A DNA stretch of 64,000 bases, from assembly GCF_009708005.2 (NCBI RefSeq), contig NZ_CP052757.1, forward strand, positions 2,170,001 to 2,234,000, written 5' to 3'. A program made the translations under genes and the position numbers. Each line of letters begins with the position of its first letter. Within the stretch, counting starts at the first letter, position 1. Source of the stretch: Cellulosimicrobium protaetiae. Lineage in GTDB: Bacteria; Actinomycetota; Actinomycetes; Actinomycetales; Cellulomonadaceae. A model generated the notes under the pieces. That model saw nothing but the letters and a program-made list of their open reading frames with translations, made no database searches and was not told the origin of the DNA. Positions 1,195 through 13,308 of this stretch are shown here, one piece after another.

Positions 1195-2601
1195 ATGGCA
1201 TCCCACTACGACGTCGTCGTCCTCGGTGCAGGTCCCGGTGGTTACGTGGCCGCGATCCGTGCAGCCCAGCTGGGCCTGTCGGTCGCGGTCGTGGAGGAGA
1301 AGTACTGGGGTGGGGTGTGCCTCAACGTGGGCTGCATCCCGTCCAAGGCGCTCCTGCGCAACGCCGAGCTCGCGCACATCTTCCAGCACGACGCGAAGAC
1401 CTTCGGCATCTCCGGAGAGGTCAGCTTCGACTTCGGCGCAGCGTTCGACCGCTCGCGCACCGTCGCGGAGGGGCGCGTCAAGGGCGTGCACTTCCTCATG
1501 AAGAAGAACAAGATCACCGAGTACGACGGCCGCGGCACGTTCCGTGACGCGCACACGCTCGACGTGAAGCTCGCCGACGGCTCGACCGACCAGGTGACGT
1601 TCGACAACGTCATCATCGCGACCGGCTCGAAGGTGCGCCTGCTTCCGGGCGTCGAGCTGTCCGAGAACGTCGTCACGTACGAGAAGCAGATCCTCACGCG
1701 CGACCTGCCCCGCTCCATCGCCATCGTCGGCGCCGGCGCGATCGGCATGGAGTTCGGTTACGTCCTCAAGAACTACGGCGTGGACGTCACGATCATCGAG
1801 TTCCTCGACCGCGCGCTGCCCAACGAGGACGCCGACGTGTCGAAGGAGATCGCCAAGCAGTACAAGAAGCTCGGCATCAACCTGCTCACGTCGACCGCCG
1901 TCCAGACCGTCAAGGACAACGGCACGGCCGGCGTCACCGTCAGCTACAAGGGCGTCAAGGACGACAAGCCGGGCGAGCTCGTCGTCGACAAGGTCCTCAT
2001 GGCCGTCGGCTTCGCGCCCAACGTCGAGGGCTTCGGCCTCGAGAACACCGGCGTCCAGCTCACCGAGCGCGGCGCCATCGCGATCGACGACGTCATGCGC
2101 ACGAACGTCGAGCACATCTACGCGATCGGCGACGTCACCGCGAAGCTCATGCTCGCGCACGTCGCCGAGGCACAGGGCGTCGTCGCGGCCGAGACCATCG
2201 GAGGCGCCGAGACGCTCACGCTCGGCGACTACCGCATGATGCCGCGCGCGACGTTCTGCCAGCCGCAGGTCGCGAGCTTCGGCCTCACCGAGCAGCAGGC
2301 GCGCGACGAGGGCTACAAGGTGAAGGTCGCGACCTTCCCGTTCATGGCGAACGGCAAGGCGCACGGCCTCGGCGACCCGACCGGCTTCGTCAAGCTCATC
2401 TCCGACGAGACCTACGGCGAGCTCCTCGGCGGCCACCTCATCGGCCCCGACGCGTCCGAGCTGCTGCCCGAGCTCACGCTCGCGCAGAAGTGGGACCTCA
2501 CGGTCTACGACGTCGCGCGCAACGTGCACACCCACCCGACGCTGTCCGAGGCCGTCCAGGAGTCGATCCACGGCCTCGCGGGGCACATGATCAACTTCTG
2601 A
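1195..2601 (+). CDS. lpdA: Dihydrolipoyl dehydrogenase (E3)
   Basis: FAD-dependent cytosolic enzyme that reoxidises dihydrolipoamide of the 2-oxoacid dehydrogenase complexes with NAD+. 468 aa, normal family length. Residues 6-16 form the FAD dinucleotide-binding motif [11 protein letters not shown]. The redox-active disulfide is in [13 protein letters not shown] (about residues 38-50). The NAD-binding motif is [25 protein letters not shown] is the second FAD-contact motif, and the C-terminal dimer interface carries the HTHPTLSE catalytic His-Glu segment. The ATG at 1195 is chosen because the Rossmann motif follows at once and TAGGCT stands 7 nt upstream. Single gene, followed by a good terminator. 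Confident. Confidence 0.97.
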
Positions 2602-2642
2602 TCCTGTACCTATGGCGTGATCTGGATCAGACATGGTCAGAG

Positions 2643-2686
2643 GCCCGGATCTGCGAGTTTTCGCGGGTCCGGGCTTCGTTCTGTTT
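2643..2686 (+). terminator. Rho-independent terminator of lpdA
   Basis: Stem GCCCGGA (2643-2649) with TCCGGGC (2668-2674), then TTCGTTCTGTTT, a real T-rich tail. It lies 41 nt after the lpdA stop. It also marks the left edge of the lower-GC island. Confidence 0.8.
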
Positions 2687-3013
2687 CCGGGGAGAAGTGG
2701 CCACCTAGAGACAGGAAGCCCCACGAGTTCCATCCGCTATGGCACGGGGATGGCACGGCGGGTCCACGACAAGAAGGCTGACATTGCCAGCAAGACTCCC
2801 CGACGACGCGACGCACGAGGGTCCCCTGAGGCGGCTGATGTCGAAGCAGTGGCAGGCGACCGGAGCTGACCAATCGCGCGCGAGCCGGCTGGCCACTCAT
2901 GGGTGCAGTTGGTCGAAGAGGCGCTCAGCGTGCCGTCGTCATGGTGGACTGATCGGTGAATAGCGTGGTCTGCGCGCAGTGTGTGGCTCCCGCGCGTCCG
3001 TCAAGGAGGGGCG
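2687..3013 (+). other. Gene-free, lower-GC spacer before the island gene
   Basis: About 330 bp with mixed base composition unlike the flanking genes and no open frame with GC-rich third positions. No tRNA, integrase or direct-repeat attachment site is recognisable. The only clear element is AAGGAGG (3003-3009), the ribosome binding site of the following gene. Confidence 0.5.
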
Positions 3014-6000
3014 ATGTCGTTTCTGGTTGACCGCAGGGACATCCTCGAATGGTCTGGCGAGGTGCGCGCGGGCTACGATCTTCCGCGCGTCCTGCGGAGC
3101 CTGATCTCGAACGACAACGGGTCCATCGGCTGGCTTGACATGCCGGCAAGTGAGGGTGCACGCCTCCCGGGCTACGACGGCGAGGTTGAGGCTTCGGAGT
3201 CGTCGACTCTGGTACCCGCCGGACGCTCGGTGTGGGAGCTCGGAGTCGAGGCTCAACCGGGATCCAAAGCCACCAGGGACTACAAGAAGCGGACTGACAG
3301 TCCTGGCTCGGTCGTGCCAGCCGAGACGACGTACATCGCCGTGACATCGCGATCGTGGCCGAGGCGAGCACGGTGGGTGGCACAGAAGAAGGCGGAGGGC
3401 GTCTGGAAGGACATCAGGGCCTACGACGTGGAGGATCTGTCGGCGGCTCTGGACCGCGACACCCCGTCGGCGATCCTGTTCCGCGATCTCGCCAACCGGC
3501 GCGGAGTCCAAGCGGCGACGTTGGGGCACTGGTGGACCGGATACCGAAGCTCGTTCACGGTTCCGCTGACGCCCGAGTTTGTGCTTGCCGGACGCACCGG
3601 CCAGAAGTCTCAGCTCGGCGCCTGGCTGGGCAGCGACGACCGGATCATCGACGTTCGGGCACAGAGTTCCGAGGACGGACGGGCGTTCATCGCGTCTGCG
3701 CTCGACGTCTTGTCCGACCAAGCGTCCAGACTGATCGTCTGCGACGACGTGGGGACGGCACGCGACCTTCTCGCGAGGTCTCGTCAGCCGCTCGTGCTCG
3801 TCACGACGATCGACACGGCCGAGCTGATGCCCCTCGGCATCCATCGGGCGATCAGGATCAACACCTCTGGACGGTGCGCTGTTGAGCTCCCGCGGCAGAG
3901 CACGCGGGAGCTCGCGGAGTTGCTCAAGGCCGAAGGCGTGGCGCACGACGACGCTGATCGATACGCGTCCGCGGCGCATAGGAGTCTCTACCGCTACTGG
4001 CTCGTTTGCAGCCAGGCGACGCATTCTCTCTGGGGCCCGGAGTTCCAAGAACGTCAGTTCAGGCGTCTCTGGCTACTCGGAGGCTGGAAGCGGGGTGATG
4101 CCGAGGATGAGGCCCTGTTGCGTGGCGCACTCAACCTCGGCGCGGATGATGCGGTAGACCAAGTCAGTCGTGATGTGAACTCGGCCGACCCGATCTTCTC
4201 GCACGTTGGCGACGTATGGCGGGTTACCGCGCCTCTTGAGTCCGCGCGCTACTTCATCGAGCGTTCAGACCTCGTGGCAAGTGATCTCGCAGTGTTCAGA
4301 CCCGTCGCGCTGTCGGTACTGGGTGAGATCGACCCGGCGCTTGAACTCCCGGAGGAGGAGCGATGGCTCGCGAACGTCAAGGGAAAGGCCCGGCGCTACG
4401 GCGAACGCACTCGCAGAAGCGTGGCGACCACACTCGCCGTTCTCGCCTCTGAGTGCGGAGCCGAGCCGTTGTCTGGTGGCCTTAGCGTCCAGGGATGGAC
4501 CGACCAACTGGTTCGGGAGCTGCTCGAAGGATGGGACGATGCACCGTCAAGGTGGGCATCGCTCGACGACGTTCTGACGCTCCTCGTGGAGGCTGCACCG
4601 GACGTAATCCTGGACCGAGTTCGCCAGGATCTACTCGGAAGCCGCGAGAACCTGCATGCCTTGTCCACGCCGGAGCAGTCGCCGTTCAACTGGGGCGGAT
4701 CGTCCCGCCTGACAGCCATTCTGTGGTCACTTCAGTCGCTCATGTGGTCACCCGAGCACTGCGAGCGTGCGCTCGACACGGCACGGGATCTGGCGCAGGG
4801 AAGCGTCGAGGGCAAGAGCAGTCCAACCGCCATCGGGATCGTCCGCGAGGCCCTGTGGCCGACCATGCCGCAGTGTGCGATTGGCACGGCTGGGCGAGTC
4901 GGCGCGATCGAACGTTGCGTCCGCGATGCGCCTGAAGTCGCCAAGCGGATCATCGAGAAGACCATCACTGAGACGCACGCCTACGCGACCGTCCACCGAA
5001 CACACTTCCGGCCCTGGACGGAGGACAGGCAACGGGTCACGTGGGCAGACGTCTTCGAGGTGTACGAAGCGATGGTCGGCGGAGCCATCACACTGGCAGA
5101 CCAGTACCCGGAGTTGTGGGTGACCCTGGTCAAGGCCGCTGACAACGTCGGCGCTCGCGGGTTCGATCAGATCGTGGCCGCGTTGGAGGCACTTCCCGCC
5201 GACCACTCCAGCCGTACACCGGTCTGGCAGGCGACACAGGGCCAGCTTCGGCGCCACCGGAAGTTCCATGACTCGGACTGGGCTCTGCCCGTTGACTACC
5301 TCGAGCGGCTCGAGGCCGCTGTCGAGCATCTGAGACCAGTTCTCGCGCGAGAGCGCGAGGAGTGGCTTTTCGGCGACAGGTTCGGCCTTGGGCTGGACGC
5401 GGACGAGATCCTCGGCGAGGACTCCCCACTCATACGGATGCAATCATCCTCGGTGAGCGAGATCCATGCGGAGGAGGGGTTCGAGGGGCTGCTTGAGTTG
5501 GCACGCGCTCATCCGCACGGCGCATGGGGGATCGGCGCGGTCCTCGCACGAAGCGAACATGAGCCCGATCTGGCCGCGATGTCGGCGTTGCTGACGCTAG
5601 ATGAGCCTGGCATGGGCGACTTCGCCCGCGGCTACCTCGTCAACTCGGCAAGAGCGGGAAAGGCCGACGTGCTGCGACATGCTGAGTCCTTGCCCGATGA
5701 CCCCGTGCTGTGCGCGCGGCTGCTCCTGACGCACCCCGACGTGGCAGAGGCGTGGGAGCACGCAGAACGTCTGGGCGAGGAGGTGGCGGAGGCGTTCTGG
5801 GCCGAGTTTGAGGTCTTCGGGCGTGGAGCGGACTTTCCGCATGTGGCGACGGTGATCCGGAAACTGCTGGACCATGACCAGGTCACGACGGCGCTCGATG
5901 CCATCGCGCTGTACCGGGAGGCCATTCCGGCAGAGAGTCGCTCAGCGCTCGTCATTGAGAGCCTGCTTCTCCTCCTCAGCCAACGTCCCACCAGCGAGCC

Positions 6001-6727
6001 CGGCTTGTTGATGCATGAGATCCGTGACCTCATCGAACTCGTTCGGAAGGACCGGTCTGTCGATCGCACCATCGTCTGCCGGTTGGAGTGGGCGTACTTC
6101 CCACTGCTTGAGTTTGAGGAAGACGAGCACCTGGCGATTGAGGTTGCCGCCTCAACGTCGGCCGAGGACTTCGTGCACCTGGTGAATCTCGCCTACCGGC
6201 CCAAGTCGGTCGCGAAGGAGGACCACGTCTTCGACAAGGCCCAGGCCGACATTGCACTCCGCCTGCTGCACACGATGCGCTACGCGACGGGCCTCAACGG
6301 AGAAGAGCCCGATACGGCAACCCTCGCGGCATGGATCGGGGATGTTGGTTCGCTAGCGACGGCCTCGGACCGCTACGAGGTCGCTATGGTTTCACTCGGC
6401 AGCGTCTTGGGTCGGGTCAGAGCGCGACAGGGCCAGCCATATCCACATGGTGCGATCGTTGCCGCACTAGAAGAGTCGACCGGCGATGAGATGCTTCGCG
6501 GTTTCAGGACGTCAGTATTCAACGCGCGAGGCGTGGTTACACGCGGGCGCGGTGGCCAGCAGGAGTACGATCTCGCGGAGAAGTACGAGGCGATCAGCCG
6601 CGAACTCCGCGAGTCCGCGCCCCGAACGAGCGAGATGTTCGGCGACCTCGCCCGTGGATACCGCATCGATGGCGCACGCGAGGACGAACGCGAGCAGAGG
6701 ATCGAGGACGGTATCGACTTCTGGTAG
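3014..6727 (+). CDS. Large island protein of unknown function, candidate nuclease/STAND-like defence protein
   Basis: 1237 aa; start ATG at 3014, 4 nt after a strong AAGGAGG. I do not recognise a named family. Seen: residues 1-155 form a compact N-terminal domain with PGYDGEVEASE (D55), VPAGRSVWELGVE (E75, E79) and KATRDYKKRT (K85, K91, K92), then AETTYIAVTSRSW. This spacing looks like a PD-(D/E)xK-type nuclease fold (inference). Residues about 185-330 resemble a P-loop/STAND-type NTPase in layout (LAGRTGQKSQLGAWL, RLIVCDD, PLVLVTTID), but no intact GxxxxGK[ST] Walker A is visible, so ATP binding is doubtful. Residues about 400-1190 are helical and repeat-like (HEAT/TPR-type by eye). No signal peptide or membrane segment. 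Base composition and codon use are clearly less GC-rich than the neighbours, and no partner gene is attached. The architecture (nuclease + STAND-like + helical sensor) is typical of single-gene antiphage systems; function is unproven. Confidence 0.85.
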   Translation: MSFLVDRRDILEWSGEVRAGYDLPRVLRSLISNDNGSIGWLDMPASEGARLPGYDGEVEASESSTLVPAGRSVWELGVEAQPGSKATRDYKKRTDSPGSVVPAETTYIAVTSRSWPRRARWVAQKKAEGVWKDIRAYDVEDLSAALDRDTPSAILFRDLANRRGVQAATLGHWWTGYRSSFTVPLTPEFVLAGRTGQKSQLGAWLGSDDRIIDVRAQSSEDGRAFIASALDVLSDQASRLIVCDDVGTARDLLARSRQPLVLVTTIDTAELMPLGIHRAIRINTSGRCAVELPRQSTRELAELLKAEGVAHDDADRYASAAHRSLYRYWLVCSQATHSLWGPEFQERQFRRLWLLGGWKRGDAEDEALLRGALNLGADDAVDQVSRDVNSADPIFSHVGDVWRVTAPLESARYFIERSDLVASDLAVFRPVALSVLGEIDPALELPEEERWLANVKGKARRYGERTRRSVATTLAVLASECGAEPLSGGLSVQGWTDQLVRELLEGWDDAPSRWASLDDVLTLLVEAAPDVILDRVRQDLLGSRENLHALSTPEQSPFNWGGSSRLTAILWSLQSLMWSPEHCERALDTARDLAQGSVEGKSSPTAIGIVREALWPTMPQCAIGTAGRVGAIERCVRDAPEVAKRIIEKTITETHAYATVHRTHFRPWTEDRQRVTWADVFEVYEAMVGGAITLADQYPELWVTLVKAADNVGARGFDQIVAALEALPADHSSRTPVWQATQGQLRRHRKFHDSDWALPVDYLERLEAAVEHLRPVLAREREEWLFGDRFGLGLDADEILGEDSPLIRMQSSSVSEIHAEEGFEGLLELARAHPHGAWGIGAVLARSEHEPDLAAMSALLTLDEPGMGDFARGYLVNSARAGKADVLRHAESLPDDPVLCARLLLTHPDVAEAWEHAERLGEEVAEAFWAEFEVFGRGADFPHVATVIRKLLDHDQVTTALDAIALYREAIPAESRSALVIESLLLLLSQRPTSEPGLLMHEIRDLIELVRKDRSVDRTIVCRLEWAYFPLLEFEEDEHLAIEVAASTSAEDFVHLVNLAYRPKSVAKEDHVFDKAQADIALRLLHTMRYATGLNGEEPDTATLAAWIGDVGSLATASDRYEVAMVSLGSVLGRVRARQGQPYPHGAIVAALEESTGDEMLRGFRTSVFNARGVVTRGRGGQQEYDLAEKYEAISRELRESAPRTSEMFGDLARGYRIDGAREDEREQRIEDGIDFW

Positions 6728-7100
6728 GGCAGTTGGCGAAGAGGTCGGCAAGGTCGATTAACGCTGGACAGGACGAACGTCTCGCTAGCCGTCCAGGATT
6801 GAGGAAGTGAGGGCGGGTGCGGGCGTTGTATCTCCTCCTGAGTGGCGCCGGGGGGAGACACGATCAATCCCTCAGAAACCACGGAATCTCAACGATCCCG
6901 TCAAATGATTAACTTCTAGTCAGTAGGTCCGATCGGACGCGTCCGATCACCTGCCTCAATCTGTCGTGGCCGGACGGTGACCTCACCATGGGCGAGCGTC
7001 CCGCACCGCGGTCGCGACCCACGTAGACGGGGCCACCCACACCTCGAGGGTCGGAGCGCTGCCCGACGGTGTCGGCTTCCCTCGCGCGGCTGGTTCCCGT
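6728..7100. other. Gene-free right flank of the island
   Basis: About 370 bp without a credible gene. The first 200 bp share the lower-GC composition of the island gene. Composition returns to the genome average after an 18-bp palindrome at 6931-6948. No integrase, tRNA or att-like direct repeat to the left flank was seen. Confidence 0.5.
6931..6948. repeat. Perfect 18-bp palindrome at island right edge
   Basis: GATCGGACGCGTCCGATC is a perfect palindrome made of two nested ones (TCCGATCGGA overlapping GGACGCGTCC). Its position at the base-composition boundary makes a recombination or regulator-binding site possible. It lacks a loop, so it is not a terminator. Confidence 0.6.
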
Positions 7101-7149
7101 ACGCACGGCCGGACCGGCACCCTCTTCGGGTGCCGGTCCGGTCGTGCGT
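7101..7149 (-). terminator. Terminator hairpin after the GH81 gene
   Basis: A 22-bp stem (7101-7122 with 7128-7149, one G-T wobble) around the 5-nt loop TCTTC, beginning 17 nt after the glucanase stop. No U-tract follows, as at most hairpin terminators in this window. Confidence 0.7.
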
Positions 7150-7165
7150 CCTCGGGTCTCTCGGG

Positions 7166-10129
7166 TCAGGAGAAGGGGACCGTCAGGGTGGCGGTCGGGC
7201 CTGTCGTGAGGGTGGGGGTGGCCGTGCCGAGGACGCTCCATGCCTCGAGCCGGATCGTGCCGCCGTCGAGGTTCCCGAGCGTTCCCGTCGTGGTGGCCGG
7301 CCGGCCTGCGGAGGAGTAGGTCTCGGGTCCGGGGACCGGGTCGGTCGCGAAGTAGGGATATGTCTCGGTGCGGTCCCACGTGCCGTCGCCGGTTAGGTCG
7401 TAGCTCATACGGACCTGGACCGCGAGGCCCACTGCCGTACCCGCGTCGACGGGCAGCGAGAATGCGCTGCTCCCGCCGCCGTGCGTCGCCGTCACGTCGG
7501 TGATCTCGAACGTCACCGGGTCGTGCGGGGTGCCGTCCCGCGTTGCGCCGCCCGCGGACGCCAGGACGACGTCGCTCGCCGTGCCGGGGTCGGCGCCGAG
7601 CGTCCCGTTCCCGCCGAGGTGCAGCGTCGCCGTGAACTCCGTGGGATCGGTCGGGTCGGTCGGGTCCGTGGGGTCCGTGGGGTCTGTCGGGTCGGTGGGA
7701 TCGGTCGGGCCACCCGTGGCGCTGCCGCCGCTCCAGGTGTGGGCCCCCGTCGTCGCGGTGGTGCCTGCTGCGACGTCGAGCGTCGTGCCGTCGGAGAACG
7801 TCACGGTGAGGTCGTCGGCGGTGACGTTCGAGGCGACGTAGGTGCGAGCGCCGTCGTCGGTGAACGTCGCGGCGAGGGGGTGGTCCGCCGTCACGGTGGT
7901 GTCGACGGTGCCGAGAGCGGCGAGGTTCGCCGTCCAGTGGAACGTGTGGGCACGGGACTCGCCCTCCTCGGGTGTCGGGTACCCGCCGCGCACGTTAGCG
8001 AGCGCCGCGTCTCCGTCGCCCAGCGCGAGGAAGCTCCACAGGATGTCCTGCCACACGGTCGGCGACCCGCCGTTGACGGTCTTGAGATGGTCGTAGAGCG
8101 CGCGCACGCGCTCCGGGTGGTACCCCAGGTACAGGTGCGAGCCGGTGATCGGCAGGGTGTTGATGCCCTGGATCATCTCCGCCTCGGCGCTGAACCACGT
8201 CGCGTACGCACCGCCGTCGCCCCACACCATGCCGACGGTCTCGTGCTCGAAGCCGTCCGGGAACGTCGTGCCCTCGGCGTCGAGCCAGTACCGCTGGATC
8301 GCGGCCGACTGCGTCGTGTAGAGGTAGATGCCCGCGTCGCGGGCGGCGGTGTCCCCGGTCGCCTCGCCCCACTGGATGAGCGCGCCCGCGAAGTTCATGC
8401 CCTCCGACGACGACTCCTGGTTGTTGCCCGCCGCGAACGCGCCGTGCCCGGACGCCCAGTCGTGGCCCGCGTAGACGTCGAAGTCGCGCAGGTACGGGAA
8501 CCGGGTCTCGTCGCGGTCGTAGCCGTTCGCGTCGCGGACGAGCAGGTCGACCATGCCGCCGTAGTCCTGCGCCCACTGCGGGTCGAACCGGGCGAGGGTC
8601 GCCGCGGCCGCGACGTAGTAGCCGTAGTGGAAGTGGTGGTCGTTGAGCTCGGTGTCCGAACCGTAGGACCCCGGGTAGCCGATGAGCGTGCCCCAGTCGG
8701 CGTCGTACGCGAAGACGCGCTCGGTCTTGCCCGGGCTCGCCGTGAACCAGTCGGTGAGCAGCGTGCGGACCTCGTCGAGCGCGGCGTCGCGCTGGGCCGT
8801 GCGGCCGAGCTGGTCGGCGATCTCCACGATGCGCGTCGCGCGGCCGAGCGCCTTGCCGGTCCAGTACGTGTCGTTGCCGCGCTGGTCGAGCGGGTCGGCC
8901 GCGACCTGGTCGAGGAATCCCTCGAGGGTCGCGCGGTCCGCGCCGGCGCCGGTCGCGACGGCCGGGACCTCGGGCAGCACCCCGCGGAACGTGTCGACGG
9001 TCGTGAACGCGTCGATCCCCGCGAGGACGGTCAGGTCCCCGCGCGCCGACGTGTAGGTCGCGTCGAGTGGTGCCGGCCCGCCGTCGAGGTACGCCGCCTG
9101 GTGCGGGTACAGCGCAGCGACGGTCCCGTCACTGCCGCCCGTCCCGGGCCACGGCGTGGTCTCGAGGGCGTACCTCGTCGTGACGCGCGACGTCGCCTCG
9201 TCGTACGCGTAGTCGGCCGTCGTCCCGGTGACGGGGGAGTACGCGGCGTCCGCGAAGACGTCGGCGAGGTCGGCGCGCGAGGACGCGTCGCCGTCGGGCA
9301 GGACCGCGACCGAGAAGAAGCCGTCGCCGCCGAGCGGCGCCGTGAAGGTCGTGCCCGAGCGCGTCCACGACGCCCCGGGCGGGGCGAACGCGACGTAGTC
9401 GTGGCCGTTTACCGACAGGCCAAGCCGCGCGCCGTCGGACAACCAGACGTCCGGCGTGGCGCTCGCGGTGAGGACCGCGTCGCCGCCGGTCGCCTCGAAC
9501 CACGCGAACGGGAGGCCGTGGCCGATCGTCGCGCGCAGCGTGCGCGCGCCGTCGTCCCAGATCGGGGACACCGTCCAGTCGGTCCAGTCGTCGACGGCGA
9601 CGTGCGGCGCGGCCAGTCCCGTCACCCCGGCGCGCAGGTCCTCGACGTACGGGAAGTGATACTCGGAGACCCCCGTGCTGGTGCCTGAGATGGCGGGCGT
9701 GGTCGTGTACGAGATGCCGAGGCCCTGCGGCCCCGGCTGGTACGACGCCGGGTGCGCGTGCAGCGGCGCGCTCCAGGCGCAGTCGAGCTTCTTGTACGCG
9801 AGCGAGGTCCACCAGTCGTTGGTCGGCAGCGGCGTGCTCGGCGCGTCGTCGGTCACGAACGCGCGCGGGTCCGCCTCGACCGCGGCGCACGCCTCCGGCG
9901 TCGGGCCGACCGGGTCGGTCGTGTAGCTGCCCGACCCGACGGGGACCGTGTCGGCCGCCGCGGTCGTCGCCTGCACCGCGGCCAGGCCGCCCGCGGCGAG
10001 GGCCGCAGCGAGTGCGGAGGCCACGAGCCGGCCTCGTCCTCGGGCCCGACGCCGGTCGGTCCCGAGCGGGGGTGGAGCCACCGCGGAGCGCAGGGCGGGC
10101 AGGGGTGTGCGTGCTGTGTCGTCGGGCAC
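7166..10129 (-). CDS. Secreted GH81 endo-beta-1,3-glucanase with C-terminal glucan-binding domain
   Basis: 987 aa extracellular enzyme that should cleave beta-1,3-glucan such as laminarin or fungal wall glucan. Residues 1-59: basic segment DRRRARGRGR, Ala-rich hydrophobic core, cleavage near TTAAA|DT. Residues about 75-790: GH81 catalytic module, recognisable from PTNDWWTSL near the start, NDHHFHYGYY (about 492-501) and GNNQESSSEGMNFAG (about 565-579), which contain the acidic residues known as catalytic in this family. Then a linker of PTD repeats (about 806-830) and a 155-residue C-terminal domain (YDLTGDGTWDR, PYFATDPVPGPETY) of the type that binds beta-1,3-glucan (CBM56-like, inferred). 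GTG at 10129 preceded by GAGGTGAG. Its promoter overlaps a CebR/CelR-type operator at 10220-10233, so oligosaccharide induction is likely. Confidence 0.93.
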   Translation of the reverse strand: MPDDTARTPLPALRSAVAPPPLGTDRRRARGRGRLVASALAAALAAGGLAAVQATTAAADTVPVGSGSYTTDPVGPTPEACAAVEADPRAFVTDDAPSTPLPTNDWWTSLAYKKLDCAWSAPLHAHPASYQPGPQGLGISYTTTPAISGTSTGVSEYHFPYVEDLRAGVTGLAAPHVAVDDWTDWTVSPIWDDGARTLRATIGHGLPFAWFEATGGDAVLTASATPDVWLSDGARLGLSVNGHDYVAFAPPGASWTRSGTTFTAPLGGDGFFSVAVLPDGDASSRADLADVFADAAYSPVTGTTADYAYDEATSRVTTRYALETTPWPGTGGSDGTVAALYPHQAAYLDGGPAPLDATYTSARGDLTVLAGIDAFTTVDTFRGVLPEVPAVATGAGADRATLEGFLDQVAADPLDQRGNDTYWTGKALGRATRIVEIADQLGRTAQRDAALDEVRTLLTDWFTASPGKTERVFAYDADWGTLIGYPGSYGSDTELNDHHFHYGYYVAAAATLARFDPQWAQDYGGMVDLLVRDANGYDRDETRFPYLRDFDVYAGHDWASGHGAFAAGNNQESSSEGMNFAGALIQWGEATGDTAARDAGIYLYTTQSAAIQRYWLDAEGTTFPDGFEHETVGMVWGDGGAYATWFSAEAEMIQGINTLPITGSHLYLGYHPERVRALYDHLKTVNGGSPTVWQDILWSFLALGDGDAALANVRGGYPTPEEGESRAHTFHWTANLAALGTVDTTVTADHPLAATFTDDGARTYVASNVTADDLTVTFSDGTTLDVAAGTTATTGAHTWSGGSATGGPTDPTDPTDPTDPTDPTDPTDPTEFTATLHLGGNGTLGADPGTASDVVLASAGGATRDGTPHDPVTFEITDVTATHGGGSSAFSLPVDAGTAVGLAVQVRMSYDLTGDGTWDRTETYPYFATDPVPGPETYSSAGRPATTTGTLGNLDGGTIRLEAWSVLGTATPTLTTGPTATLTVPFS

Positions 10130-10203
10130 GACGTCTCACCTCGGTGGGTCACGCGCGGCACCTCGTCGTCCCGCGCTCCGTGACCTGGCGTCGCTGCCAG
10201 GCC

Positions 10204-10233
10204 GGGAGCAAACGCTCTCTGGGAGCGCTCCCA
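10204..10233 (-). promoter_or_regulatory. CebR/CelR-type (LacI-family) operator upstream of the GH81 gene
   Basis: TGGGAGCGCTCCCA at 10220-10233 is a perfect 14-bp palindrome identical to the operator known for CebR/CelR regulators of cellulose- and glucan-degrading genes in actinobacteria. A second, degenerate copy (GGGAGC-aaac-GCTCTC, 10204-10219) abuts it. The site lies 6 nt downstream of the -10 hexamer, where a bound repressor would block initiation. The regulator gene is not in the window. Confidence 0.85.
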
Positions 10234-10239
10234 CGCCTC

Positions 10240-10267
10240 ACTGTAGGGCCTTCTCGCGGCCACGCAA
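10240..10267 (-). promoter_or_regulatory. Promoter of the GH81 gene
   Basis: On the minus strand, TTGCGT (10267-10262) and TACAGT (10245-10240) are separated by 16 nt and directly precede the operator. The leader would be about 100 nt. Confidence 0.6.
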
Positions 10268-10323
10268 GGGGGTCGCAGCAAGGTGCCGGACCTCGTCGGG
10301 AGGCCCGGCACAGGCTCCCTGCT

Positions 10324-11388
10324 TCAGCTGGCGCGGGCCAGGGCGATGTTCGTGGAGCCGCGCTGGCCCGCCTCGTAGAACATGTGCAGCCGTCCGTCGA
10401 CCTCGACGAACGACGGCGCGGCGGCCCGCCCGGCGTCCGGCGCCCCCGACCGTGCGTCGTACAGCACCCCGAGGTGGTCCTCGCGGTCGAAGCCGGTGCC
10501 GACCCGGGCGACGTGGATGTTCCCCGAGCCGGAGTGGTAGACGACGTGCCCGCCGCCGTTGCGCGACCAGTAGTGCGCCCCCGAGAGCTGACCGCCCTCT
10601 CCGGCGCTCGGGGAGATGAGCGGCTCCGGCTTGACCTGCCAGCCGGACGTCAGCGAGCTCGACCAGCCGATGTAGATCTTGCGGGTGCCGCCGTGGTTGC
10701 CCATGAACAGCATGATGTACATGTCGGACCGGGTCGGGTGCGGGAAGACCCGGGCGTAGGAGGTCTCGCTCACGCCGGGAAGCATGGAGGTGCCTACGAC
10801 CCGGTTGTGGTAGGTGAAGCTCCGGCCGTCGGCGGAGCTCGCGACCCGGGTCGTGTGGTTCTCGCCGTGGAAGAACAGGTAGATCCTGCCGTCGGCGGGG
10901 TTCCAGAAGGCGTCCGGGCTGGAGACGTGGCTGACGTCGAAGCTCGCCCAGGTGCGCGGGATGATCGGGTTCGCGTCGTACTCGCGCCAGGGACCCGTCA
11001 CCGAGTCCGCGTAGGCGAGGCAGATCCCGCCGGGTGCGTCGTGGGGCGCGTAGTACATGTACCAGCGGCCGAGCGGGTTCGTCACGCGTCCGGCGACGTG
11101 GCGGACGGAGGGGAAGATCAGCTCGTTCGTCGGGTTGTACCGCAGCCGGCTCTTGTCGAGCGGCTGGCCGAGGTAGCTGAACGTCGGGAAGCCGGGCACG
11201 GCGGCTTGCGCGGGGGAGGCGCCCGCGAGGTCGAGCAGACCGCCGGTCGCCGTCGCGGCGCCCAGGACCACGGCGCCCCGCAGGAGGCTCCGGCGGCTCA
11301 GCGGCGCCGAGGCGCCCGGGAGCGCAGCGGAGGACGCCGGGTCCCAAGGGTTCGGTGTCGTGCCGGGGGAGCGGTGTTCGTCCGTCAT
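10324..11388 (-). CDS. Tat-exported beta-propeller protein, GH43/GH130-like
   Basis: 354 aa. N-terminus has the twin-arginine motif SRRSLLRG (residues 31-38), an Ala-rich hydrophobic segment and AQA|A cleavage near residue 62, so it should leave the cell folded. The mature part shows repeated beta-propeller strands with YADSVTGPWREYDANPII, SPDAFWNPADGRIYLFFHG and WSSSLTSGWQVKPEPLISP, the style of five-bladed glycoside hydrolases (GH43, GH32, GH130). I cannot assign catalytic residues, so substrate and activity are open. Start ATG at 11388 with GGAGT upstream. It lies 194 bp upstream of the GH81 gene on the same strand but the glucanase has its own promoter. A much longer open frame continues upstream antisense to other genes; it is an artefact of high GC. 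Confidence 0.75.
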   Translation of the reverse strand: MTDEHRSPGTTPNPWDPASSAALPGASAPLSRRSLLRGAVVLGAATATGGLLDLAGASPAQAAVPGFPTFSYLGQPLDKSRLRYNPTNELIFPSVRHVAGRVTNPLGRWYMYYAPHDAPGGICLAYADSVTGPWREYDANPIIPRTWASFDVSHVSSPDAFWNPADGRIYLFFHGENHTTRVASSADGRSFTYHNRVVGTSMLPGVSETSYARVFPHPTRSDMYIMLFMGNHGGTRKIYIGWSSSLTSGWQVKPEPLISPSAGEGGQLSGAHYWSRNGGGHVVYHSGSGNIHVARVGTGFDREDHLGVLYDARSGAPDAGRAAAPSFVEVDGRLHMFYEAGQRGSTNIALARAS

Positions 11389-11517
11389 GCTGACTCCACG
11401 GTGAGAGTGCGGGTGATACGGCAGGACGATGCTCGGGTCCGGGAAGCGCAGGGGGCAAGACGATAATGCGGATCGCCAAGCGACCGGTGCGTGGCACGCT
11501 TCGACGACGGAGCCCCC

Positions 11518-11523
11518 TAAGGT
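11518..11523 (+). promoter_or_regulatory. -10 element TAAGGT of rnhA (leaderless type)
   Basis: TAAGGT ends 6 nt before the GTG of the RNase H gene and no Shine-Dalgarno sequence is present. Confidence 0.5.
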
Positions 11524-11529
11524 GGAGCC

Positions 11530-12048
11530 GTGCTTGATGTCGAACCCGACCTCGTGACCACGACCGGCTCCAACGGGGCCGCCCGCACGGGCACCCTGAC
11601 CGTCGTCGAGATGTGGACCGACGGCGCGTGCAAGGGCAACCCCGGTCCGGGCGGGTGGGGAGTGCTCATGCGCTCGAAGGGGCGTGAGAAGGAGCTCTTC
11701 GGCGGGGATCCCGCGACCACGAACAACCGGATGGAGCTGACCGCCGTCATCGAGGGGCTGCGTGCGCTCACCCGGCCGTGCGACGTCACCCTCCACGTCG
11801 ACTCCTCGTACGTCATGAACGGCATGCGGTCGTGGATCGCAGGCTGGAAGCGCAACGGCTGGCGTACCAAGGACAAGAAGCCGGTCAAGAACGTCGAGCT
11901 GTGGCAGGCGCTCGACGCCGAGGTAGCGCGGCACGAGGTGCGCTGGGTCTGGGTCAAGGGGCACGCCGGGGACCCCGGCAACGAACGCGCCGACCAGCTG
12001 GCGAACCGTGGGGTCGACCTCGTGCGGGACGGTGCGCGTCCTTCCTGA
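11530..12048 (+). CDS. rnhA: Ribonuclease HI
   Basis: Cytosolic enzyme that degrades RNA in RNA:DNA hybrids (R-loops, primers). 172 aa. The DEDD active site is complete: D31 in [18 protein letters not shown]69 in [11 protein letters not shown]91 in HVDSSYV, and D155 in GNERADQLA, with the flexible His in VKGHAGD (H145). About 25 variable residues precede the domain. GTG start at 11530, supported by TAAGGT 6 nt upstream. Divergent from the propeller gene. The next 219 bp contain an odd coding-like fragment on the other strand. Confidence 0.93.
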
Positions 12049-12204
12049 GCGGTACCAGTGGTTGCCGAGCAGCACGACGGGCACGAACAGGACGTCCAGC
12101 ACGAGGTCGTGGACGGTCGACCCGACGAGCGCGAGCATGACCGCGACGTAGGTCGTGGTCGCCCGGGTGGTGGTGGCGTCCGCTCCGAGCAGCGTGACGA
12201 GCGG
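12049..12204 (-). pseudogene. Orphan coding-like fragment of a membrane protein (possible gene remnant)
   Basis: Read on the minus strand in one frame, about 50 consecutive codons have G or C at the third position (one exception) and encode YVAVMLALVGSTVHDLVLDV followed by LFVPVVLLGNHWYR, a plausible membrane helix pair. There is no credible start in frame, and no stop: the frame simply continues antisense into rnhA. This fits a truncated remnant better than a working gene. Low confidence; the observation is direct, the interpretation is mine. Confidence 0.3.
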
Positions 12205-12267
12205 TGGTGCGGCACGGCGTCGGGCGGGGAGAGGATGGGTCGGGGGACACCGACGAGAAGGAGACCC

Positions 12268-13308
12268 ATGCCTGCGCCCACGACGCCCACGCGCGAGTTC
12301 GTCACCGGCCTGCCGAAGGCCGAGTTGCACCTGCACCTCGAGGGGACGCTCGAGCCCGACCTCAAGCTGCGCCTCGCGCAGAAGAACGGGATCGACATCG
12401 GCCAGTCGACGGTCGAGGAGGTGCGCGCGACGTACGCGTTCGACTCGCTGACGAGCTTCCTCGCCGTGTACTACCCGGCGATGGAGGTGCTGCAGGCCGC
12501 GGACGACTTCTACGACCTCGCGGACGCGTACCTCGCGCGCGCAGCCGCCGACGGGGTGAAGCACGTCGAGATGTTCTTCGACCCGCAGGCGCACACGTCG
12601 CGCGGGGTGCCGTTCGAGGCCGTCGTGACCGGGTATCACCGGGCGGCGTCCGAGGCGCCGGACAAGCACGGGATCGACGCGCACCTCATCCTGTGCTTCC
12701 TGCGCGACCTGTCGGCCGAGAGTGCGGCCGAGACGCTCGAGGCGTCGGTGCCGTTCCGGGACAAGATCCTCGGGGTCGGGCTCGACTCGGACGAGCGCGA
12801 CAACCCGCCGCAGAAGTTCGCCGAGGTCTTCGCGCGCGCTCGTGAGCTCGGCTACCGGCTGACGATGCACTGCGACATCGACCAGGTCGGCAGCATCGAC
12901 AACATCCGCACCGTGCTCGACGAGATCGGCGTGGACCGCGTCGACCACGGCACGAACGTCGTCGAGGACCCCGCGCTCGTCGACGTCGTGCGCGAGCGCG
13001 GGCTGGGCCTCACCTGCTGCCCGATCTCCAACTCGTTCGTCACCGACGACATGAAGGCGACCGAGATCGCCGGGCTCCTGCGCTCGGGCGTGCGGGTGAC
13101 GGTGAACTCCGACGACCCGGCGTACTTCGGCGGCTACGTGGCCGACAACTACGTGGCGCTCGCGGACGCGGCGGGGCTCAGCACCGAGGAGGTCGTGCAG
13201 CTCGCGCGCAACTCGTTCGAGGCGTCGTGGCTGGGCGAGGCCCAGCGGGCCGCATACCTCGCAGAGATCGACAGGTACGTCGCGGGGTTCGACACGACCG
13301 GCGTCTGA
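12268..13308 (+). CDS. add: Adenosine/adenine deaminase family protein (COG1816)
   Basis: 346 aa zinc-dependent amidohydrolase for purine salvage. Metal ligands HLHLEGTL (H21, H23), catalytic Glu region, LTMHCDID, VDHGTNVVEDP and VNSDDPAYFGGYVADNY are visible. The SDDPAYFGGY form of the last motif is what is usually seen in the adenine deaminase (Aah1-like) branch rather than in classical adenosine deaminase, so the substrate may be adenine; the gene symbol is therefore tentative. ATG at 12268 with GAGAAGGAGA 5 nt upstream. An upstream in-frame extension lacks coding character. Followed by a two-part hairpin. Confidence 0.88.
   Translation: MPAPTTPTREFVTGLPKAELHLHLEGTLEPDLKLRLAQKNGIDIGQSTVEEVRATYAFDSLTSFLAVYYPAMEVLQAADDFYDLADAYLARAAADGVKHVEMFFDPQAHTSRGVPFEAVVTGYHRAASEAPDKHGIDAHLILCFLRDLSAESAAETLEASVPFRDKILGVGLDSDERDNPPQKFAEVFARARELGYRLTMHCDIDQVGSIDNIRTVLDEIGVDRVDHGTNVVEDPALVDVVRERGLGLTCCPISNSFVTDDMKATEIAGLLRSGVRVTVNSDDPAYFGGYVADNYVALADAAGLSTEEVVQLARNSFEASWLGEAQRAAYLAEIDRYVAGFDTTGV

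Follow-up and report, generated by a model that had tools for sequence, protein, structure and literature searches.

A probable family of bacterial antiviral receptors with a predicted nuclease head and a STAND-like module lacking a P-loop, represented in Cellulosimicrobium protaetiae

The window analyzed here is a stretch of 64,000 nucleotides (2170001-2234000 on contig 1) from the 4.78-Mb, high-GC (guanine plus cytosine) genome of Cellulosimicrobium protaetiae. Near its left end lies a gene for a 1237-residue protein belonging to a large unnamed family of receptor-like proteins that probably defends bacteria against viruses. The features of the locus were as follows, with residue numbers referring to the protein.

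2587..2601, + strand: left copy, the 3' end of the lpdA gene proper (M-I-N-F-stop)
2602..6904, no strand: 4.3-kb segment between the two copies, 64.6% GC against 73.6% for the window
3003..3009, + strand: ribosome-binding site AAGGAGG, preceding the ATG at 3014
3014..6727, + strand: gene for the 1237-amino-acid protein, ATG at 3014, stop at 6727 (open reading frame list, homologs)
3023..3508, + strand: predicted PD-(D/E)xK nuclease head, residues 4-165
3176..3178, + strand: D55 codon
3236..3238, + strand: E75 codon
3266..3268, + strand: K85 codon
3569..4021, + strand: AAA/STAND-like module without Walker A, residues 186-336 (model), including R194 of its 'GR' motif
3644..3679, + strand: site of the lost P-loop, residues 211-222, with consensus A-x-S-x-[DE]-[DE]-[AV] at 216-222
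4022..4393, + strand: winged-helix-like stretch, residues 337-460, with W340, W358 and P441 strongly conserved
4394..6724, + strand: all-helical solenoid, probable sensor, residues 461-1237 (model, Foldseek)
6521..6565, + strand: conserved N-x-R-G ... GG-x-QE motif near the C-terminus, residues 1170-1184
6905..6919, + strand: second, right-hand copy of this lpdA 3' end, the same peptide with one third base changed and a different stop codon

The open reading frame is a real gene, because it has full-length homologs at up to 84% identity and a whole-gene ratio of nonsynonymous to synonymous substitution rates (dN/dS) of 0.17, calculated against the gene of a 77% homolog. The identity of full-length relatives spanned 84% to about 25%, and the gene was the single match in its own genome. 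The head was the most constrained region, with a dN/dS of 0.09, which together with the overall value indicates purifying selection; the value for residues about 181-336, the NTPase-like module, was 0.20.

Successive searches recovered 28 relatives, then 67, and finally 1284 at an expectation value (E) of at most 0.001 with a broader alignment, the best 120 of the 1284 being listed. Named relatives came from Actinomycetota, Chloroflexota, Nitrospirota, Verrucomicrobiota and Pseudomonadota. The protein had no Pfam, NCBIfam or PADLOC match, in agreement with an earlier note, made by a model from the letters of this DNA, that had recognized no named family; none of 5027 PADLOC models matched at E≤1, and hence no Avs model did, as we take Avs models to be part of that library. 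Four profiles (head, NTPase-like module, winged-helix-like stretch and tail) were made from a 117-sequence alignment and searched against 231 sequences, 228 of them distinct. All four parts were present in 180; the nuclease head was missing from 36, head and NTPase-like module from 14, and one had the tail alone, although several of these reduced relatives lie on short contigs and may be fragments.

In AlphaFold2 models, with a predicted local distance difference test score (pLDDT) of about 91, a nuclease core of the PD-(D/E)xK type was followed by a module resembling AAA/STAND folds, then by a winged-helix-like stretch and finally by a solenoid made up entirely of helices. The earlier note had called for structure prediction and named the absence of a nuclease or NTPase fold as fatal to its claim; both a nuclease and a STAND-like fold were predicted. 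For residues 1-620 the only PDB matches at E≤0.001 were Avs4 and Avs3 (AVAST types 4 and 3), which share with the 1237-residue protein the order of nuclease head, STAND-like module and helical C-terminal arm, although no sequence match to them was found.

The predicted head contained the alpha-beta-beta-beta-alpha-beta core of the PD-(D/E)xK superfamily, with conserved D55 and E75 on adjacent strands as the superfamily requires. Counted over the rows with a letter at each position among the 180 nuclease-headed relatives, D55 was present in 176/176, E75 in 177/177 and K85 in 175/177. A nuclease-like head with conserved catalytic-type residues, as first suggested, is therefore upheld by the predicted fold, while two further residues proposed for the same cluster were not conserved (E79 in 28/177, K91 in 34/177). 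The canonical (D/E)-x-K was absent, position 77 being G in 127, S in 47 and K in 1 of 177, and K85, on the helix after the E strand and so displaced from the canonical position, may stand in as the catalytic lysine. The core fold is shared with the PD-(D/E)xK restriction nucleases BspD6I small subunit, MspJI, EcoT38I and Lamassu LmuA, from which the head differs in its displaced lysine candidate and in belonging to a receptor-like protein of 1237 residues.

We examined the STAND-like module in 211 relatives in which it was longer than 120 residues. STAND NTPases carry a hydrophobic-hydrophobic-G-R motif ahead of the first strand, and this motif was present (G193 in 175/211, R194 in 209/211). 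The Walker A pattern [GA]x4GK[ST] was found in none of the 211; the lone GK[ST] lay elsewhere in its module, and the consensus had acidic residues at the place of the P-loop. An earlier whole-sequence scan of 117 proteins had given 11 [GA]x4GK[ST] patterns, all outside that place. The Walker B acidic pair was likewise absent, with S61 D42 T21 H21 E17 at position 244 and D73 S45 E32 G20 T15 at 245 (of 211). Loss of the P-loop is no one-off decay, because it is missing in every relative examined. The NTPase-like layout without an intact Walker A that had been read from this one protein thus agrees with the model, and the proposed degenerate STAND region can be stated more sharply, as a module whose P-loop is gone throughout the relatives. 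In the adjoining stretch, helices at 363-373 and 377-388 and strands at 395-398 and 401-404 of the model would be compatible with a winged helix after the NTPase-like module.

The long helical tail was also borne out, residues 455-1237 being modelled as all helix (mean pLDDT 90.8) and matched by Foldseek to HEAT/karyopherin-like solenoids. Residues 1170-1184 were among the best-conserved parts, which is odd for a presumed sensor expected to follow fast-changing ligands.

The rest of the protein, which we call the chassis, was found with other heads. A Labedaea relative carried a TIR head on the same chassis (TIR_2, E 3.1e-6; bit score 28.1, cut-off 28), and TIR-like heads were present in Actinokineospora and Amycolatopsis loci, with no Pfam match for L030 and L034. 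In L092 a SLFN_AlbA_2 head (3.1e-9) was fused directly to the winged-helix-like stretch, P0174 had a Cap4-like head by eye with no Pfam match, and in L026 a head like that of P0174 was a separate gene overlapping the chassis gene by 4 bases. These three matched the winged-helix profile (L092 4.4e-29, P0174 1.5e-28, L026 head gene 2.6e-10) and gave no match to the NTPase-like profile at E≤10; the relatives with Schlafen-AlbA_2- and Cap4-like heads thus lack the module. A quick tree built from 75 chassis sequences, of which 54 carried nuclease, 18 TIR, 2 Cap4-like and 1 SLFN heads, needed four head changes, with TIR as one clade within the nuclease-headed sequences; the placement of L092 is unsure because of its long branch. 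One Amycolatopsis operon (L034-L038, about 2300-13000) encodes TIR-like proteins by eye, a ParA-like protein and a 1031-residue protein with AAA_22 and HerA/DUF87 matches, and ends with a family member bearing a degenerate TIR-like head.

Domains were also added at the ends of some members. Helix-turn-helix (HTH) domains of the HTH_17 or HTH_3/HTH_31 type stood N-terminal to the nuclease head in P0015, P0016, L015, L024, P0143 and P0164, and HTH-fused members of this kind carry a transcription-regulator annotation on plasmids. The C-terminus of P0047 (residues 1345-1422) is an AIG2/gamma-glutamyl-cyclotransferase domain, and P0185 has the same Pfam domains. An unannotated 6.6-kb phage record, MT837561.1, matched residues 23-252 at 1948-2634, covering the head and the start of the NTPase-like module.

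The locus showed signs of mobility. The lpdA gene ends ATGATCAACTTCTGA at 2587, and ATGATTAACTTCTAG was found at 6905. The degenerate 15-mer occurred twice in the 4.78-Mb genome and its reversed control not at all; shuffling predicted none within the window, and the 16 congener stretches, 3.7-14.3 kb long, contained one copy apiece. Bases 6902-6953 aligned with the lpdA end and downstream sequence of one congener at 86.8% (E 2.4e-11), while an ungapped count for the same bases gave 34/52 for three congeners. No integrase was found in the 4.3-kb segment, which looks like the footprint of integration at a gene 3' end. Composition was foreign, with a GC content at third codon positions of 0.77 in the gene and 0.96-0.97 in two neighbours. 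The description 'island protein' is to be amended, since gene calling placed no other gene in the 4.3-kb segment, which has lpdA on one side and a glucanase-like gene on the other (each identified by eye). The stretch 2723-11505, between lpdA and an adenosine-deaminase-like gene, differed in all 16 congeners compared, none of which covered it with a match over 60 bases; some had GmrSD (GmrSD_N), AbiEi, AbiEii, NOV_C or DUF234 genes there and others metabolic genes by eye.

Distribution was sparse. With its own genome counted, the gene was found in 1/17 genomes of the genus, 2/221 of the family, 5/297 of the order (one via a 53-residue match) and 4/396 of the phylum (one whose match begins only at profile position 349). 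Among the members in Agrococcus, Tessaracoccus, Rhodococcus and Arsenicicoccus, DNA identity was 87-93% over 4.0-6.5 kb, and 22 plasmid records had a match, 11 of them typed conjugative. A strong PADLOC match was present in a neighbour at 10/31 loci with a called neighbour, as follows:

L086: GajA and GajB of Gabija, upstream of the 77% homolog
L090: DrmD, DrmMI
L089: type IIG enzyme, DrmD-like, DruE-like
L013: type I restriction
L026: type I specificity
L028: CBASS cyclase
L023 and L031: PDC-S39
L092: PDC-M12A
L029: cytosine methyltransferase

In addition, an AbiE pair adjoined a relative on a Rhizobium plasmid; PADLOC gave nothing for 6/19 singly scanned neighbours. As a control, 120 proteins were taken from six of the genomes, in 20 regions with fixed, arbitrary positions, and matched 39 PADLOC families at E≤1e-20. 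The 25 of these that were listed included mad3 (4 proteins), mad8 (2) and, as single-protein matches, DpdJ (1.7e-170), BrxHI, PD-T4-6, mad6, MzaA, SngC and C3a189; the comparison is qualitative, with single-component lookalikes in the control too. Beside family members, the adjacent pairs GajA-GajB and DrmD-DrmMI were seen. Homologs often adjoined defence genes or sat on plasmids, and were thus not confined to the conserved housekeeping contexts that would have refuted the earlier note. The PDC-S39 protein (643 amino acids, DUF7380/DUF4209; L023 7696-9627 and L031 7694-9625, with the same DNA in L025) is encoded divergently to an HTH-fused family member; the stretch holding them, about 6 kb long, is 89-93% identical in DNA among three genera.

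Inactive STAND modules are treated, in the excerpts of PMC7159879, PMC12839542 and PMC8195603, within MoxR-vWA ternary systems, a GT4/HEPN system and BREX. There, the iSTAND and iSTAND2 of ternary systems, which include N-terminal TIR or peptidase fusions, and the BrxB iSTAND of BREX are proposed as a switch or sensor, as we propose here. Those modules are components of multi-gene systems, the BREX one without a C-terminal helical bundle, whereas here a single protein combines head, module, winged-helix-like stretch and long solenoid. No MoxR or vWA gene stood beside the gene by eye among the first 40 genes of the window list, for which no model scan was made. DSR2-type SIR2 receptors have an effector head and a long helical arm; the likeness is one of layout, with a SIR2 head there and a nuclease head here. 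Newly validated PD-(D/E)xK systems are reported in the excerpted text of PMC13092281. No paper was recognisable by title or abstract as describing the present family, in a search with preprints and most subscription papers outside its scope, which is no proof of absence.

We hypothesize, with a probability of roughly 0.62, that the gene encodes a one-gene, Avs-like anti-invader defence receptor in which the STAND module is a structural hinge and not an ATPase. The computed basis is the predicted folds, the conserved catalytic-type residues, the Walker A loss, head exchange, signs of mobility and defence neighbours. The solenoid (about 461-1237) would bind an invader protein, and the winged-helix and STAND-like part, its nucleotide site lost, would relay the change by acting as a hinge or as a surface for assembly. 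The nuclease heads, gathered or released, would then cut DNA via D55, E75 and K85, and this cutting would stop infection, probably by cell killing or arrest. Nuclease activity, the trigger, independence from nucleoside triphosphate (NTP) and defence itself are what we infer. For the one-gene system of nuclease, STAND and repeat sensor first proposed, the layout stands as predicted, loss of the P-loop in every relative examined is added, and phage defence is the likely role given the computed signs.

An inactive STAND or winged helix might instead bind foreign DNA or RNA and unleash the nuclease. The excerpted text of PMC8195603 proposes inactive STAND domains as nucleic-acid receptors, and some members have a fused N-terminal HTH (HTH_17 E 2.5e-8, 1.7e-11). 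Yet 140/180 nuclease-headed members have no HTH, since fewer than 15 residues precede the head, and a long solenoid would better suit a protein ligand; we consider nucleic-acid sensing unlikely. Somewhat less likely again is an ordinary STAND receptor that still binds and uses NTP via a non-canonical loop. Conservation of the A-x-S-x-[DE]-[DE]-[AV] loop and R194 shows the P-loop site to be under constraint, in keeping with the dN/dS across the module, but the 211 modules offer no Walker A, acidic residues at the P-loop place, and D in only 42 at 244 and 73 at 245 at the Walker B strand end, while SLFN and Cap4-like relatives manage without the module.

It is improbable that the family has no defence role and serves mobile-element maintenance or regulation. 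Members do occur on conjugative plasmids, and some, e.g. on Rhizobium plasmids, are annotated as helix-turn-helix transcriptional regulators, but the HTH, where present, is a small added domain, the catalytic columns are invariant, TIR- and Schlafen-type domains replace the head, and strong defence matches adjoin 10/31 loci. A decaying pseudo-nuclease or chance open reading frame is barely credible, its foreign composition notwithstanding, being contradicted by the intact frame, the ribosome-binding site, the dN/dS of 0.17 with the head most constrained, and the 84% full-length homolog.

Beyond the single gene, the hinge reading extends to a wider claim, to which we give a little less than an even chance: that a widespread NLR-like receptor class works without nucleotide, its STAND module a passive hinge or ligand pocket family-wide, with heads swapped on the chassis and the module dropped in some branches. 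Textbook receptors of the same shape should not work without an ATP site. The nucleotide site is reported, in the excerpts of PMC12931631, as essential in at least one STAND defence protein, PaAvs5, which needs its Walker A and loses immunity on alanine substitution at G362 or K363, whereas Walker A is absent from 211/211 modules here. The family is a blank spot of 1284 proteins, some annotated as transcription regulators, whose member in the window is covered by no model in Pfam, NCBIfam or PADLOC. Its nuclease site being invariant and the P-loop missing from all 211 members examined, the family makes receptor triggering without NTP directly testable.
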